IMG/VR virus record: IMGVR_UViG_3300047094_002183
Span: 1-64,000 of that record
Reading direction: 5' to 3' (one strand)
Length of the DNA: 64,000 nucleotides
DNA from: a virus
Each line of letters opens with the position of its first letter. Position 1 is the stretch's first letter. Positions 547-32,146 of the stretch are shown here, piece after piece. The notes under the pieces were generated by a model. The model saw nothing but the letters and a program-made list of their open reading frames with translations, searched no databases and was not told the DNA's origin. Made by a program: the position numbers and the translations under genes.

Positions 547-1360
547 CGTTTGTGTTACGAATTAGCCGTTACCGCTAATTCTCCTGTATTTTCATACAGG
601 ACCAGACTATGTCATCTTGTAGCGTAACGTCTCACATTGCATCGGTTGCATAAACCTTTTGACGCGTGTGGTGACGTTGTTAGGCCGCATGAAATACACG
701 CGTTATGTTGCGTGCTCCAGCGGCCACACTTTAAAAGTTTTGGCGTGGCGTATTTTTCTGTGCGTGCAACTTGTAGTTCTGTCTTGTGCTCTAACAAATG
801 ACAGCGTCTACAAACTGTTTCAAGATTATCAAGGGCGTTGTTTGGATTTTTTTTCCCGCGTCCTAAACGATCTTTGTGATGTACGACAAGTTTGTTTTTA
901 TTACCGCAACGAGAGCAGCGCTGCTCATCGCGTGTAATAACTGCAACTCTTTGTCCGTCAAAATGACGCTGTTCGCGATTAATTTTGTATTGCGGCAAAA
1001 TTTCATCGCGATATTTGTCGTACCACTTTTGTTTTAACTTTGCTATACGCTGGCGATTTGCGGCGTCGTTGCGATAGCGAGCCAAATAACAAACTTTGCA
1101 CAGTCCTTTTGCCATATGCGGTTTTTCTGTTTTTGCGCATGTTTGGCAGCAGGAGTATTTTTTTGACCACATTTCAAAACTCTACTACAAGGCCCCCGTT
1201 TCGAGCCCACTTGGGCCCTACGATCTTTCGATCTAGTCGTTGAACCTTCCAAGTGTATTATTACTTGGCTTGGCTGCAAGTTGTCCGGCTTACGCTGAGG
1301 AGTTTCTTGCAATTAAAGGGCTTTGCGCTGATTTGTTGCCAAATCAGGGGACTGAATTCA
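547..1360 (-). ncRNA. group I intron interrupting the AAA+ ATPase gene
   Basis: The 814-nt intron separates codon GAT (Asp321) from GAA (Glu322). The 5' exon ends in T and the intron ends in G, as group I splicing requires. A P1 helix can form in which exon GGAT pairs with intron GTCC (about 1348-1351), placing the splice-site U opposite G. The core is readable on the minus strand: P-like element at 1299-1314, Q-like GACAACTTGCAGCCAAGCC at 1267-1285, R-like GTTCAACGACTAGAT at 1231-1245, and S-like AAGATGACATAGTC at about 604-617, with GACTA/TAGTC forming P7. Two 3' hairpins follow: CCTGTAT/ATACAGG closed by a GAAA loop, and GAATTAGC/GCTAATTC. The HNH gene sits between R and S, i.e. in the P8 region. 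Confidence 0.93.
612..1172 (-). CDS. intron-encoded HNH homing endonuclease with duplicated zinc fingers
   Basis: The 186-aa protein has an HNH core: C86 and C89, His98-His99, Asn116, C121 and C124, then H125/H129. This nuclease type nicks or cuts the intronless allele and spreads the intron. Flanking the core are two related zinc-finger modules, one at residues 9-30 (CxxC...HxAKGLCxxC) and one at the C-terminus (CxxCG...HASKGLCxxC), which look like an internal duplication and probably add DNA contacts. The gene lies entirely inside the group I intron, in the same orientation, and its TGA stop at 612-614 falls inside the S/P7 element, so the last codons double as ribozyme core sequence. Confidence 0.92.
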   Translation of the reverse strand: MWSKKYSCCQTCAKTEKPHMAKGLCKVCYLARYRNDAANRQRIAKLKQKWYDKYRDEILPQYKINREQRHFDGQRVAVITRDEQRCSRCGNKNKLVVHHKDRLGRGKKNPNNALDNLETVCRRCHLLEHKTELQVARTEKYATPKLLKCGRWSTQHNACISCGLTTSPHASKGLCNRCNVRRYATR

Positions 1361-4621: not shown

Positions 4622-5038
4622 TTATTGGTTGCCGACAACTTTGTCGCGCGGCGCATCTATTGGGGCGCTAGTTGTCAGCACAACATCGTTGTCAGGAATC
4701 TGACAGTTGGGTCCGCGCAGGCGGCCTGTGTTGAGTTCGGGCCATTTTTCTAACGAGTGTATGGCACCCAGAATATTCCACGCGGCGTGACCCAGATGGT
4801 CTTCGTCTTGGTTGCCCGCTAAAAATTTGTACACGTGGGCAATAGCATGATTTAGCAGGTCGCTCACTGGCATGCCGTTTTCCCAATTGTGGGCGCCGAA
4901 TTTTTCAGCTCCCTCGGCGTACGTTTTGGCCAGCGCGTGCAGCCCAATTGGCGAAATCAGATCGTATCGAACGGTATCGCAATCTGCGCTGCGGACAGCG
5001 CCGCTGGCGTATTCATGCCGCTCTTCTGTCATCATCAA
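4622..5038 (-). CDS. DUF5664-like dATP/dGTP diphosphohydrolase
   Basis: The 138-aa protein has the pattern of the DUF5664 / 'dATP/dGTP diphosphohydrolase N-terminal' family: ALAKTYAEGAEKFGAHNW, then a helix with HAIAHVYKFLAGNQDEDHLG and HAAWNILGAIHSLE. The E-x-x-K and E/D-D-H residues are those expected to bind metal in all-alpha NTP pyrophosphatases. Such enzymes trim purine dNTPs; one branch (MazZ) serves phages with 2-aminoadenine DNA, but no PurZ-type gene is visible here. AAGGA precedes the start. The C-terminal 35 residues look like a divergent tail. Confidence 0.75.
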   Translation of the reverse strand: MMMTEERHEYASGAVRSADCDTVRYDLISPIGLHALAKTYAEGAEKFGAHNWENGMPVSDLLNHAIAHVYKFLAGNQDEDHLGHAAWNILGAIHSLEKWPELNTGRLRGPNCQIPDNDVVLTTSAPIDAPRDKVVGNQ

Positions 5039-24586: not shown

Positions 24587-27500
24587 TTATTCCAGCAGCT
24601 CTAATATCAAGGCGCGAAACTTTGCTCGCAACGTCGGGTTAACTGGTTGTCCGTTTGTGTTCAAACCAAGTTGCGTAATTAACGCCGTGGTAAAATCAGC
24701 ATCTGCCGCCAGATTTTTTGTGTTGAACTCTATTGTTGCGCCAATAACTGCGTTATCAACAATTGTAACATTACCCGACAGCACAGCCGGTCGCGACGAG
24801 ATAAAATTATTGCCGACTAACGCAATTTGCGGTCCGGTCGCGCCCTGCGGCCCTGTAGCACCACGGGCGCCGACCGGCCCGGTAATACCGCGCACACCAG
24901 TTGCCCCCTGCGCGCCTGTGGCACCTGTAACACCCTGATTGCCAGTTGGGCCTGTTGCACCACGGACACCGGTTGCGCCTATTTGCCCGTCATTTCCGCA
25001 CGGACCCGTTGCGCCGCTAACGCCACTAGCGCCAGTAGCGCCTATTTCGCCGGCAACGCCCGTCGGGCCAGTGACACCGCGCGAGCCCTGAACGCCCGCC
25101 GGCCCAGCAGCCCCCGGCAGACCCGGAGCACCTCTTTCACCCTCTGGGCCTGTTTCTCCGGCGCAGCCTGTCGCACCAGTTGGACCGATTTGACGCCCGT
25201 CGAGAATAGTATCGAACTTCTGCCAGCCCTTGATGTCGAGTTTTTCTTCCGCTCCGTCAACAATTACTGTTTTTTGGTACGGCGTCCATACGTACGCGAA
25301 CAATGTCGGTTTTTCGATCCAAAAGTCACCATACGTCGGCGAGCGCTGCGGGCGAATCTGTGGTTTGGATTCGTCTCGCGGCGGGTTGTCGTACAAACGC
25401 AGCGGAAAATCTGTTGCGAGGCCCTTATAAAAAATTGGCAGTTGGTCGGGCGGTGTGCGATTTGTTCCGATAAACCAATCGCGCGTTGTCGGATACCGAC
25501 GCGCTGGTGGTTCTGGCGGGTCTTCTGCCGATGGCGGGGGTGCAAGTGGGTCAGGATCGACATCTGGGCGGGCCATGTCCACGCTATAGCGAAGTGTGTA
25601 GTATTCTTCGTAGCGCGCTCGAATTACGTCTTCCGGTACGTATTTCAAACATTCATCGGTGTTTGTAAGATTAATATCAATCGGCCCAATATTGATCCAC
25701 CCGACGCGCGGCGGGTCTGGCAATAAACCGTCGTTCATCGTCCCGATTGTCGAAGTATCGTTGAACCATAAAAACGCGTCGCCGGCTTCGGCCGGGGGTT
25801 GCGCGCCCAATATGACATCTTCCATTGACACGCCGTCGTCGTCGTCGGCTGGTTCCGGGACTGGATTGAGTTGCCGCCGACCAGAGAGCGGGTCTGATCG
25901 GTAGCCTAGGCCTTCGTCCGTAACGACAATCACTGCCCCGCCAACGCTAAAAGGCCCGTAACGATATGTTAGCTCTACATTTTCAACCGTCGGTACTTTT
26001 CTCGTGATGTTACCGACCGTGAGATCCGACAACAGCTCAACGTTTCCGAAAACTAAATAATCATTCCATGTGCCGCGCGTATACAACGCAGCTGCATAGC
26101 CGGCGTCGATCCCGCGGTCGCCCTTGTTGCCCATTGCGCCAGTTGCCCCCCGCGCGCCCGTGGGCCCGATCGGACCAGTAGCGCCGGCGGTTCCTCGCGC
26201 GCCGCGAAGCCCCCGAGGGCCGGTTTGGCCCAGCGCGCCTTTTTCTCCGCGCGGACCTGTCGCTCCGGGCGATCCAGTCAGCCCTCTGTCGCCCTTATTG
26301 CCCTTATCGCCTTTGAGGCCACGCGGCCCAACTAAGCCCGTTACACCAGTTGCGCCCGTTGCGCCGGTAACGCCTGTGACGCCGCGTGGGCCAGCGGCGC
26401 CTGCTGCGCCGGGCACACCTGTAACGCCCGTGCTGCCTGTAAACCCGCGCGCGCCGGTCGCGCCGGTAATACCCTGATTGCCAGTTGCGCCTGTTGCGCC
26501 GCGCGCGCCAACGGCGCCTGTGGCGCCGGTTTGACCGCGCGGGCCTGTTGCACCCGACACGCCTTGGCGGCCTGTCGCTCCGCTTATACCCGTTGCGCCA
26601 GTTGCGCCTGTAACGCCGGTAGCGCCTTGCGCGCCAGTGGCGCCTACGGCGCCGGTTTGACCAATCGGGCCGGTTTCACCAACGACGCCGCTCGGCCCAG
26701 TTGCGCCGCTTATACCTGTTGCGCCAATTGCGCCTGTTGCGCCGGTAACGCCGCTTGGCCCTGTTGCGCCGGTAACTCCTGTTGCGCCTGTTACCCCGGT
26801 AGCGCCTGTAAGTCCTGTTGCGCCACTCGCCCCCATATCTCCTGTTGGACCAATACAACCTGTTGGGCCCGTTGCACCGCGCGGCCCCGCTGGACCCGCG
26901 GGCCCTTGCGGACCAGTTGCGCCGCGGGGGCCGGTCGGACCTGTCGGACCACTAGGTCCGCTTTCGCCCGTCTCGCCCTGCAGGCCTTGCGGGCCCATCA
27001 TACCCATAGCGCCCGGCATACCCATTAAACCGCGCGGGCCGGTTGGGCCAGCGGGGCCAGTAGCGCCGGTCTTACCTTGCGGGCCGGTTGCGCCTCTTTC
27101 ACCTTGATCGCCTTTGCTCCCACCGCCGCCGGTGCCGTCAGACGGACAATCAGTCGTATCTAATGTAACCGTGACATTGACGACGTTATTTTTTATATCT
27201 ACATAACCGCCACCAATTTTTTGACTGCCGCCGGTAACAGTTACTGTGCCGCCTTGTAGCGTGTTTGTCGCGGTGAGTAATTTGATGTCATAAAAACAGT
27301 CGCCGTTTTTATCGCCGCGTGGTGTGATTGATAAAGCACCGCCGGAAATTGGCGTGTATTCTCCACCGCCGGCATACTGTACTGGCGTCGGGTCAATTTT
27401 GTAGTCGCCGGCGCCGAAAATGGGGCACGCTGTAATCGCTTTGACGGAAACATACGGCGTGATTTCCCAACGACAAAGATCCGTTTGCGCCACATTAAGC

Positions 27501-30500
27501 GTTACGGTATTGTCGAGATCTTTACCGGAATAAAGTGTTCCAGTTTTACCAATAATAACTGGAATACACGGTTTGGGAATGCCGAGATTAATGACAACGT
27601 CTGTCGCGCAACTTTGCCCCGGAAAATATGCCGGCGTAATGCTCATGCTGCCGACTGGGTCTGCTGTCGGCGGTAGTGATGTCACATTGACGGCGCCAGT
27701 CCAGATTGTGCACGGCGGCGTCGGTATTTGGATGTCTAAATCCAGTACAACATCGAAGTTACATTGCGGCGGTTCGTTTACGCCGATATTCAGCGTATGC
27801 GTTGGTAAAATTTCAAGCAGCACCGTCGATGCTGCGCCGTAACCGACACGCAAACTTTGATTTACAACATTGATAACCGGGCACGGCGGTCGCGGAAGCA
27901 GCGTGTCAATGTTGATATCAAAGTGATACAGACACTGTCCCGGGTCTCGACAACTTGGGCCGCTGGTGACCGGCGTGATTGCAAGAAAACTACCGGTGCG
28001 CAAAGGCGCAACGTCTTCGTAGCGCGTAAAAAACGTGCCGCTCGTCGACATAGTCGCGCATACCGGCGGCGGAACCGGCACAAAAAGATCTAACGCCAAA
28101 TCAAACGCGCACGTGTCAGGCGTAGTGCACGCCGACGACGGAATTGTTCTTTTTGTGACTGTGAGCTTATTCTGTTTTCCGCTGACGCACGCCGCACCGG
28201 CAAAACCGGTGGTCACTCGCACCTCGCCGCTTTTAATTTCAACGCAGGGCGGCTCAGGGATCGGGATAACAATCGCGAGATCAAGATCAAATTCGCACTG
28301 CGGCGCACCGCAATCAACCGGTGTTTGCCGCGACACGACGCTAAACGAGCTGGACTTACCCGCAACGCACGCCGACCCGGCATACCCACTCCGCACGTCC
28401 AAGCGACTAACATTAATTACTGGGCACGGCGGCGGCGGAATCGGAATGTTTAATTCCAGATCGACGTTGAATTCGCAGTTGTCGACGCCGCACTCATCCG
28501 TAGTCGATGCGTTTATTATTTCAAATTTGCTTGCGCCGAGTCCTTTTGTGCACTGCGTGCTATAAAACACGTTTTGCGCGAAAGTGCGGCGACGAATTAC
28601 CGGGCACGGCGGTTTTGGAATCGGAATAGCGAGTAATAGCTCGACGTCAAATTCGCACTTGCCGGGATCGTCGCAACCTTCCCCGAGTTTATGGTTTGGG
28701 GTTATTGCAAAGTAATTCGATTTACCCACCAATGACGAGCACGTTTCGTAGCCTGTCGTGACATCAAAAGCTGTAAGCCGCAGCTGCGGGCATGGCGCGC
28801 GCGGAATTGGAACGTTCAGCTCCAGTTCGACATTAAATTGGCATTGCCCGGGATCGTTGTGGCTGCTGCTCGGTATATGCTCTGGCGTAATGCGCAAAAC
28901 GTTTTCGCCGTCTGCGCAAGTAACGCCGCCGCCGTCCGTAAACCCAACGGTCATTGAAACCGCTTGTACCGCAATAATAGGGCAGGGCGGCAGCGGGATC
29001 GGGACTGCGATTTTTAGGTCGATATCAAAATCGCACTGGTCGGGCGTATCGCAATTGCCCTGCGTGACGCGCGGTGTAACGGCGAGCCCGGACGTGAAAT
29101 TCTCAAAAATGTTTTCAGGTGTTCCGCCGCTATCACCACCGCCACCACCGCCGCCATTATTGGTGACGCTGCCGCTTTGTATTTGACAATTTGAATCTGA
29201 ATAACACACGTTACCCATAGCCATGTTGTACTGCGCTGATCTGCACACAGCCATTGTCGCGTAGCGCCCAGCCGCTACCTCGCCGGCGCAGTATGTTTCA
29301 ACTTGACGACATTCTGTCCCGTCGCCGCAGTCTTCGCATTCGGCGGGGCGGTATATTAAGACGTATTCGCCCGAACAAGTCGCGCTCTCGCTACTTGATA
29401 CTTTACAATTTGAATCTGCATAACACACCCCGTCTGCAGAAAAACCGCTACTAGCGAGATGTATTCTGCATTGCTCCATTGTCCCGGGTACCACGACGCC
29501 ATTTTCTATGCTGTCGAAGTAGCCGTTCGCCAACAAGGTAGCGCAGTGTTGGTCAATAGAAACACACGTGATCGACGCGGGGTCGCCAACCACGGTGTAC
29601 CTTAATGCATACCCGCCGGGACAAAACTCGACGCCGGCGCTGTTGCTATTGGGATCCGTGAGCGAGAGCTTCGTGCCGCCGCTACTATTACCACCACCGG
29701 CGGCAGTGAAAGAGAGCTTTGTGCTGCCGCCACTAGTGCCGCCGCTGCCACTGACGATGTATCCGCTGCGTACGTCAACATTTATAACGTTGAGATTTGG
29801 GCACGGCTGTCGCGGGATTGGAACTTCTAAATCTAGCTCAACGTTAAAACGACACTCACCCGGATCATCACAGTCTGTGCCCGGCACGTGTTCGGACGTA
29901 ATGCTGAATTTATTTTTTCCTGTGAAGCACTTACTATCGGAATCGTTTCCGATAAAGCCAACAGTTAACCCAAAATTTTGCACGCTGATAACTGGGCACG
30001 GCGTGCGCGGAATTGGGACTGCGATAGCAAGATCGACATCGAAGTCGCACTGGTCCGGCGTATTGCAATTGCCGACAACAATTCTCGGCGTAATGGTGAA
30101 TGCTGGCGTGACGCCATAGAGGCACGAATTTTTATCGTTAATATCTGCCGGTTGAAATCCGCTAACTACAGTGAAATTGTTAACAAAAATATTCGGGCAC
30201 GGTTGTTTCGGAATTGGAATGGCGAGTTCCAGTTCAACATCAAATTGGCACTCATCTGGCGTGTCGCAGCCGCCCGGAATAATGGTCGGCGTAATGGCGA
30301 AGCGCGTGTTCTTGCCAAACAAGCACTTATTGTCTACGCCGATTTCGGCGTCGGCAGCTGCAAAACCGACAGACACGTCGAACGTTTTTGTATTAATTAC
30401 GGGACACGGTGGGCGCGGAATAGGGATAGCCAGCGCTAGGTCTACTAAAAAATTGCACTGGTCGGGTTGATCGCATTCGCCCTGTATGTGCTCTGTTGTG

Positions 30501-32146
30501 ATTTCAAATTTTTGTTCGACGCCAGTAAAACAAATAGCGTCGTCATACGCCGTAACGACGTCGAAACTGTTGACATTAATAACTGGGCAAAATTGCCGCG
30601 GCAGCGGCAGAACGACCTGCAAATCAACGTCAAAATTACACTGATCTGGATTGTTGCAATCTCCGGGTACGATCGTTGGCGTGATGCGAAATTTACTGTG
30701 TTTTTCTTCTGCGTCGCGAACTTCGCCAGTACAACTGTTGCCTATCGTTACGAGCGTGCCGTTGTAGGCTGTAATTTCTGGCGAGACCGGCATCCACGGA
30801 ACAACCTCCGCGCCGCTAAAATCACCGTCGGGCACCCACCAACCGCCAACACCCCACGGGTCGGGCGGCGGATAAACGATACCGGCGCCGATAGTTCCGG
30901 TTATTACGCCCGTGCCGGTTATCAAAGCATTCTGCGGGCCGGTATAGAAAGCGTATTGGGTTGTCGCTTGGTCGCAATCTGGCGGATATAGCGGCAGACC
31001 TTCGTCGTCCAATAGCTCTGCGCACGGACAGCGCAAGCTAGCCGATCCGTTGAACGAGTTTAAAAGCAGATTTCCAGTGCAATACCACAGGGTTCTTACG
31101 ATGTAGCAACCGTCGTCGAACGGCACGCTAATTTTATTTACTGGCCCAACAAAACATTTAATATCTAGCGGGTAATTATTTTCGTCGTACTCGCGGCCCG
31201 TAAAACCGGCGTTGACTTTAAAATTACTGATATTAATGTCGGGGCAGGTTGGCGCTGGAATTGGAATAAGAATTTCCAACTCAACATCAAAACGACACTG
31301 GTCAGGCGTACTACAGCCGTCGCCAAAAATATGCACTGGCGTGATGCTGAAATTATTGGCGCCATTTTCAAGGCAGAGATCCTTGGAGTAGCCGCTTGTA
31401 ACGTTAAACTTAGTAAGATTAATTGACGTACACAACGGTCGCGGGATCGGCACGACTATGCTTGCGTCGATATCAAAGTTGCATTTATCGGGTAGGTCGC
31501 AGCTGCCCACTTCGATGCGCGGCGTAACGGTAAAAAATGCTTTTTTATCTATGCAGCCCGGGTTGCCGTCGTACGGCGCATAGCCGGCGAGTACCTCGAA
31601 CGAATTTACATTGATTCGCGGGCACTCCGGTGTCGGAATTGGGACGTTGATCTCTAGATCTAAACTAAAATCACATTCGTCTAGCGTAGAGCAGTCGCCA
31701 ACCGTGACATTTTTTTGAACCAGAAAACGCGATGGCGGCAATGGGCATTTGTCGTACGCTACCGCAAAATTAAATGCGCCGATAGTTACATTGGGTGCGC
31801 ACGGCGGTTTTGGAATCGGTATCGTGAGATCAAAGTCGAGGCTGTACGTACACGGGTCTATATCTTTTTTATCAAGTGTGATTACCGCCGCAGCGGGGCC
31901 GATATTACACGGGTTCCCGTTGCCGCCATCCGCGTACCCAAGGTTTAGCGTCGCGGTGGCGAGAAATACGGGGCAAGTTGGGCCAACGTCATCGGGCGGC
32001 TCGGGAGCGATGAACGGCGCAGTACAGCCGTAGATCGGTTTTGGCGCCGGCGGAATGTTGCACACGTCAAGCGCGATGAAATTGAAGTCGGCTTTTGGCA
32101 CGGCCTCAATTGGACAATTAGAGTCTTTGAACAAGTTTTCTGTCAT
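24587..32146 (-). CDS. giant modular tail fibre with collagen segments, 2519 aa
   Basis: Residues about 90-1500 hold about 17 copies of a 65-80-residue repeat, each with CxxPDxCxFDVxLxIxxPIPxPPCP followed by INVxxFDVxxGY: three Cys and a PIP-x-PPCP strand per unit. One unit has a 110-residue Cys insertion, and after the ninth copy two copies of a CxVCYxDSNCxxxSG module are inserted. A collagen-like segment spans about 1675-2013, a globular region about 2014-2317, a second collagen segment about 2318-2440, and a C-terminal helical domain about 2441-2519. The architecture is that of a long fibre; receptor binding is inferred. Start ATG 32146 follows GAGCGGA. Confidence 0.88.
26408..26458 (-). 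repeat. second copy of the 51-bp collagen block
   Basis: Identical to 23868-23918, located in collagen segment 1 of the giant fibre. See that entry for the likely origin. Confidence 0.9.

Follow-up and report, generated by a model that had tools for sequence, protein, structure and literature searches.

How can 814 nucleotides come between the two Walker B acidic codons of an AAA ATPase gene, a pair that this phage motor protein needs for ATP hydrolysis, and what keeps them at that place? The question is raised by a stretch of viral DNA of 64,000 nucleotides, referred to here as the window, which is part of a virus record of 66,285 bases (IMGVR_UViG_3300047094_002183). On its minus strand, the ATPase gene begins with an exon at 1361–2323, which comprises codons 1–321 and terminates in GTG GAT, the latter being the Walker B Asp codon ending at 1361, and resumes with an exon at 1–546, which comprises codons 322–502 and the stop codon and opens with GAA ATT GAA from 546, the first of these being the Walker B Glu codon. 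The intervening segment, 547–1360 on the minus strand, starts with TGAATTCAGTCC and ends with ...ACACAAACG, with the omega G at 547. A first-pass annotation had described it as a group I intron inserted exactly between D321 and E322; these limits are correct to the base and the residue numbering holds, and the strand, which had not been given, is minus.

The covariance model check proposed in that annotation favors the intron: Rfam model RF00028 (Intron_gpI, gathering score 50) accepts the core fold with 72.2 bits and an E value of 2.3e-16, matching 583–1370 (−) over model positions 1–253, and this is the sole Rfam hit in the whole 66,285-base record. The exact limits of the intron were taken from the ATPase gene and not from the ends of this match. 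Removal of the intron gives VLFVD321|E322IEKG and an intact AAA ATPase of 502 amino acids, in the same frame as its uninterrupted relatives. This spliced protein matches PF00004 (E 2e-27) and phrog_8638 (E 1e-82), it has an AAA domain with Walker A GxxGxGKS and Walker B hhhhDE, and its best relatives in the PDB are Cdc48/p97. For conservation in the ATPase family, D321|E322 and G267|K268 tie for the top of 501 junctions; the prior choice of sequences by a DE-like motif inflates this rank for E322, K268 not being so affected. If the intron is retained, a UGA follows D321 immediately, hence the earlier prediction that failed splicing would produce a truncated, Walker-B-dead protein is borne out by the reading frame. 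Elsewhere in the window, positions 24590–32146 (−) encode a protein of 2,519 amino acids that contains collagen-like repeats (PF01391) and is probably a tail fibre.

The RNA elements that had been picked out by eye, namely P1 with its U·G pair, P7, and the 3′ hairpins, are all present in a complete set running from P1 to P8, with P7.1/P7.2, P9, and P9.1, all on the minus strand. In P1 (1349–1364), the exon sequence GGAU (1364–1361) pairs with the internal guide GUCC (1352–1349), and the U·G pair joins 1361 with 1352. The P2 hairpin (1328–1347), the P4–P5 region (1275–1311, with P4 strands at 1306–1311 and 1275–1280), the P6a hairpin (1249–1268), and the P9 and P9.1 hairpins (559–601, with P9 at 582–601 and P9.1 at 559–581) are each seen both in the fold and in the comparison of pairs, and the 3′ strand of P3 (1192–1197), which pairs with 1315–1320, is seen in the Rfam match as well. 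P7, the G-binding helix, forms a pseudoknot between its 5′ strand GACUA (1234–1238) and its 3′ strand UAGUC (605–609), and the P8 5′ strand CUUGUAG (1185–1191) pairs with CUACAAG at 616–622. Between P7 and the 3′ strand of P3, the segment 1203–1233 folds into P7.1 (1222–1233) and P7.2 (1203–1218), both with compensatory changes; we take these hairpins to be the mark of subgroup IA, and the intron is therefore presumably IA-type, an assignment made at the level of IA and no finer (IA1, IA2, or IA3).

When the core is folded with the endonuclease gene, described below, swapped for a short loop, the minimum-energy structure recovers P1–P6, P7.1, P7.2, P8, P9, and P9.1 (z = −5.85 against 200 shuffles), P7 being the expected pseudoknot. 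Across the 11 distinct introns found at this same site, 92.5% of the cells are paired, compared with 34–42% in slid controls, where partners were shifted by 1–3 columns, and in 49 of 80 pairs, P7 included, both partners have changed; none of the shuffles attained the observed values. In the alignment of structural pairs, P1 is misplaced for L095 and P8 for some rows, errors that reduce the paired count and do not raise it. P7 is 100% paired in the 11 sequences, with compensatory changes in three of its five pairs and the variants GACUA/UAGUC, GGCUA/UAGCC, and GAUCA/UGAUC. Guide and exon pair with a U·G at the splice site in 11 of 11 introns, over 4 to 9 uninterrupted pairs; the window's own P1 is short, at four, which counts against the explanation preferred below. 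By eye, a P10 can form as well, between the GAA that starts exon 2 and the UUC or UUU that immediately precedes the guide (GAG and CUU, respectively, in L095). The last intron nucleotide is G in all 11, the exon ends in U in all of them, and the first intron codon is an in-frame stop, UGA or UAA, in nine.

Relatives of the ATPase are encoded at 64 viral loci, and members of its own clade occur in phage genomes of about 200 kb. The closest intronless allele, L002 (92% amino acid identity), is uninterrupted exactly at the junction, as are about 40 further clade members, and the intron is present at D|E in seven clade records: the window, L037, L038 (which lies at a contig end), L042, L043, L044, and L053. 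The window and L037 are identical over all 2,323 bases and are thus not independent. Alleles that lack exactly the intron at the same junction, together with the compensatory changes, exclude chance, and the comparison confirms 547–1360 as a group I intron at the D321|E322 junction of an AAA ATPase. Related introns occupy the same D|E junction in much more distant ATPases, namely L070/L072 (a pair with no differences over the stretch compared), L088, L089, L090, L094/L100, and L095, which brings the total to 15 viral records with 11 distinct introns of the same intron-plus-HNH lineage. The host proteins share 43% (L088), 29% (L089), and 25% (L070) identity with that of the window; one intron lineage holds one exact junction across hosts about 25–43% identical, and D|E is its standing home. 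In L097 a related intron lies 5 nt further on, splitting the DEI codons after AT, as read from the sequence. Rfam at the gathering cutoff misses L088–L092, and at E ≤ 1 it still misses several of the introns, so absence of an Rfam match was not counted as absence of an intron.

Matches in the DNA of Vibrio and Klebsiella phages are short and confined to the core of introns that lie in other genes, those for terminase and primase/helicase. In each of two Vibrio phages, MG592553.1 (L078) and MG592562.1 (L079), three group I introns interrupt the terminase gene, and the phage records annotate the terminase exons as separate terminase-like genes.

The first-pass annotation had overlooked a gene inside the intron. 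Located at 612–1172 (−), within P8 and with its stop codon just before the P7 3′ strand, it encodes an HNH endonuclease of 186 amino acids (PF01844, E 2.9e-6, above the cutoff; phrog_119) whose HNH core is flanked on both sides by similar Cys-rich elements (CxxC...H...GLCxxC). H98, H99, N112/N116, H125, and the CxxC pairs are invariant in eight HNH homologues. The frame is maintained with dN/dS of 0.09–0.27 in five intron copies, which indicates an enzyme under purifying selection. A Pfam scan of the protein finds HNH only, with no NUMOD or I-HmuI DNA-binding modules; its AlphaFold model (mean pLDDT 80) gives only weak Foldseek matches in the PDB, to the HNH core of other nucleases and none with E < 0.001. 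Sequence searches of the PDB and of a phage protein collection gave no match, and in one genome per bacterial or archaeal species, patterns were matched and no relative was confirmed. By analogy, the protein may act like I-HmuI, yet it lacks the modules of that family and is not filed there.

Relatives of the enzyme also occur outside this setting. L092 is a free-standing HNH relative with no intron match. Two others (L096:2974–3459 and L098:2974–3435) are free-standing as well, directly downstream of an ATPase gene of permuted type, described below, that has no intron, as if the endonuclease lineage had remained with the ATPase gene after loss of the ribozyme. A further relative (L099:2317–2608) adjoins a group I match of 41 bits, which is below threshold and falls in a terminase-like gene; the nuclease lineage is thus not confined to ATPases.

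Several lines of evidence bear on how the intron reached its present hosts. In the gene tree of the host clade, intron-bearing genes stand in four separate places. The D321 codon is GAT in six of six intron-bearing genes and GAC in 41 of 42 intronless ones, and the surrounding footprint is GTG GAT|GAA in the former and mostly GTC GAC|GAG in the latter. The flank is CTT TTT GTG GAT|GAA ATT GAA in both the window's gene and L044, and CTG TTC GTC GAC|GAG ATC GAG in L014, the intronless sister of L044. The Asp codon alone is no proof of co-conversion because GAT is partly demanded by the U·G pair of the splice site; the neighbouring synonymous positions, which change together with it, are the better evidence. 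Between the window and L044, identity is 98% in the intron core, 82% at fourfold sites of the HNH gene, and 61% at fourfold sites of the exons. The window clade joins L072 in the HNH tree (support 99 and 95 on adjoining branches) and L088 in the ATPase tree (support 100), and AU tests reject each tree for the other's data (p 0.009 and 1e-7), with the proviso that support in the HNH tree is modest in places and that alignment is difficult for very distant ATPases (weak nodes, 38–51). Taken together, the scattered places in the tree, the footprints, the contrast between intron and exons, and the AU tests show horizontal movement into the same junction. L002 has the footprint GTGGAT|GAAATT near locus position 4964 but no intron, and every other gene with this footprint is intron-bearing; the site in L002 is either an exact loss or a retained ancestral site.

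From these comparisons, the segment is best explained as a mobile intron of group I (IA-type) whose P8 houses the gene of an HNH homing endonuclease, a reading to which we assign a probability of roughly 0.88. The sequences themselves show the fold, the junction, the presence or absence of the intron in relatives, and its movement between hosts, whereas splicing, cleavage, and the succession of steps are inferred. The transcribed RNA would fold, guanosine would attack after U1361, and the joining of 1361 to 546 would restore D321–E322, so that the ATPase can be made; these steps are well supported. Unspliced RNA would halt translation at the UGA and leave a fragment of 321 residues with no catalytic Glu, and the early stop would also keep ribosomes off the ribozyme core. 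As the comparative data suggest, the HNH enzyme would cut or nick the Walker B codons in the ATPase gene of a co-infecting phage that has no intron there, and the ensuing repair would copy in the intron along with a few flanking codons, the ribozyme rendering its presence nearly harmless to the ATPase gene. Because the Walker B codons are nearly invariant, the site would persist in ATPases that are very distant, and no removal but an exact one would be tolerated, which would explain why the lineage has stayed at the junction while moving between phages.

Other explanations account for parts of these data. An old, vertically inherited intron that was lost in most family members, with no recent mobility and with the HNH gene as a relic, would agree with the same site being occupied in very distant hosts and with the resemblance of L002 to an exact loss; it is rendered improbable by the mutual rejection of the HNH and ATPase trees, by the four separate places at which the intron, with synonymous footprints in common, is nested among genes that lack it, by the far greater likeness of the window and L044 in the intron than in the exons, and by the purifying selection on the HNH frame. 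The stop directly after D321, and the in-frame stop that opens 9 of the 11 distinct introns, would yield a defined product and could suggest that the intron is kept as a regulator of the ATPase, through slow splicing or through a 321-residue fragment acting as a dominant inhibitor, and not as a selfish element. An early stop is equally expected as protection of the ribozyme from ribosomes, however, and with a patchy presence and some 40 close relatives that manage with no intron, such a role seems very improbable. An intein, an in-frame insertion, or a gene broken by misassembly is barely conceivable, even though phage terminases are known to carry inteins in both Walker motifs, A and B (PMC5050341), as the insert fits the group I covariance model and recurs, identical or homologous, in independent assemblies. 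The intein was rejected outright, there being no open frame through the insert, whose first codon is UGA.

A different emphasis is placed on the enzyme if the HNH protein is seen mainly as a weapon against the ATPase gene of co-infecting intronless relatives, homing being secondary. Its model is gp210 of phage PhiPA3, which has been shown to act against PhiKZ in interference competition and which, like the enzyme described here, is an HNH protein from a group I intron that adjoins the codons for catalytic acidic residues in a conserved gene of the phage (PMC11620839). The majority of the relatives of the present ATPase have no intron and hence would be targets; the footprints, on the other hand, show that homing occurs. 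We regard a primary weapon function as rather unlikely. It is compatible with the mobile intron preferred here, and the present data separate neither from the other.

The setting has clear precedents. Mobile group I introns are an established class that favors conserved sites (PMC2814812), so the earlier remark that homing elements choose invariant codons is correct, and the placement that had been called striking is a strong example, but of a known rule and not an exception to it. Likewise, the position on the DE pair is exact, as claimed, but the occupation of the same junction in very distant ATPases points to the standing home of an intron lineage and less to a lucky landing. In phages, introns that carry HNH genes are commonly found in the genes for polymerase, terminase, and reductase, and group IA introns are known in Bastillevirinae (PMC11878797). 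The DNA polymerase introns of SPO1, SP82, and Bastille, with the HNH genes I-HmuI, I-HmuII, and I-BasI, are, as cited in two papers (PMC11620839, PMC12908238), similar in being phage introns of group IA type with HNH in a peripheral loop and in a conserved stretch of an essential-type gene; the hosts differ, an AAA ATPase here and a DNA polymerase there, as do the endonucleases, the present one having Cys-rich elements on both sides and no NUMOD in the Pfam scan. The intron of PhiPA3 gp210, also of group I, immediately follows the codons of two conserved aspartates in an essential gene of a large phage (PMC11620839), and the likeness is one of architecture, the host gene of gp210 being that for a viral RNA polymerase beta subunit. 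The terminase inteins of mycobacteriophages are also mobile self-splicing elements in ATPase catalytic motifs, Walker B included (PMC5050341), though they reside in another protein family and act by protein splicing, whereas RNA splicing is predicted here. The open-licence papers searched contain no report of an intron at the D|E site or in this ATPase gene family, and host gene, site, and recurrence thus appear unreported, the mobile group I intron at a conserved site being a well-known class.

The ATPase family harbors further introns. In L201/L202:1890–3010, an insert of about 1 kb with a LAGLIDADG-type frame lies between PGTG and KS of Walker A; L179 has one of about 270 nt just before PGTGKT; and L091 (HNH-type frames) and L199 (LAGLIDADG-type frame) have inserts after D-x-G, 17 codons downstream of D|E. 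L179, L199, and L201 have no Rfam match at E ≤ 1; from a GCAUA/UAUGC P7-like pair seen by eye and exact in-frame rejoining, we infer that their inserts are probably group I as well.

Another feature of the family is a subfamily with reversed motif order, in which a Walker B segment (GFIDEIEKGLAG...LQVFLKVMQD) precedes Walker A (GHPGTGKS), followed by sensor 1. It occurs in ten loci (L096:1333–2943, L098:1375–2970, L058:2762–4276, L162, L063, L059, L181, L174, L195, and L187), and an isolated phage, Tunturiibacter phage Tunturi_3 (PP885686, 70766–71218), matches the whole reversed stretch, so the order is no assembly error. The L058 protein gives a confident AlphaFold model (pLDDT 83, pTM 0.72) whose Foldseek matches are tandem AAA proteins, and the subfamily looks like a segment-permuted AAA domain, on which our literature search found no report. 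At L096:558–626, there is a Type-P1 twister ribozyme-like match of 42.6 bits, below the gathering score of 67.2.

What sets the intron apart is how exactly, and how deeply, it is attached to a single catalytic junction. A practical warning follows for annotation: gene callers break such ATPases into a fragment with no Walker B and a headless C-terminal part. Within one data set, a single lineage at a single exact junction comes with footprints in the flanks, many alleles that lack the intron, and hosts that are very distant; this is an unusually clean test, supplied by nature, of why catalytic codons are occupied by mobile introns, with defined substrates for asking whether the HNH enzyme reads the coding sequence of the motif and tolerates synonymous changes at wobble positions. 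It is possible, and we put it forward only tentatively, that one intron-plus-HNH lineage recognizes the DNA encoding the Walker B motif D-E-(I/L)-(E/D)-K and homes between ATPases 25–43% identical. If so, homing would extend beyond its ordinary allelic range, recombination would depend on hardly more than the motif, and the Walker B codons would be a long-lived address across families, other introns holding Walker A PGTG|KS and DSG|V. Such RNA parasites can stay tied for very long to one unchangeable place in a gene.
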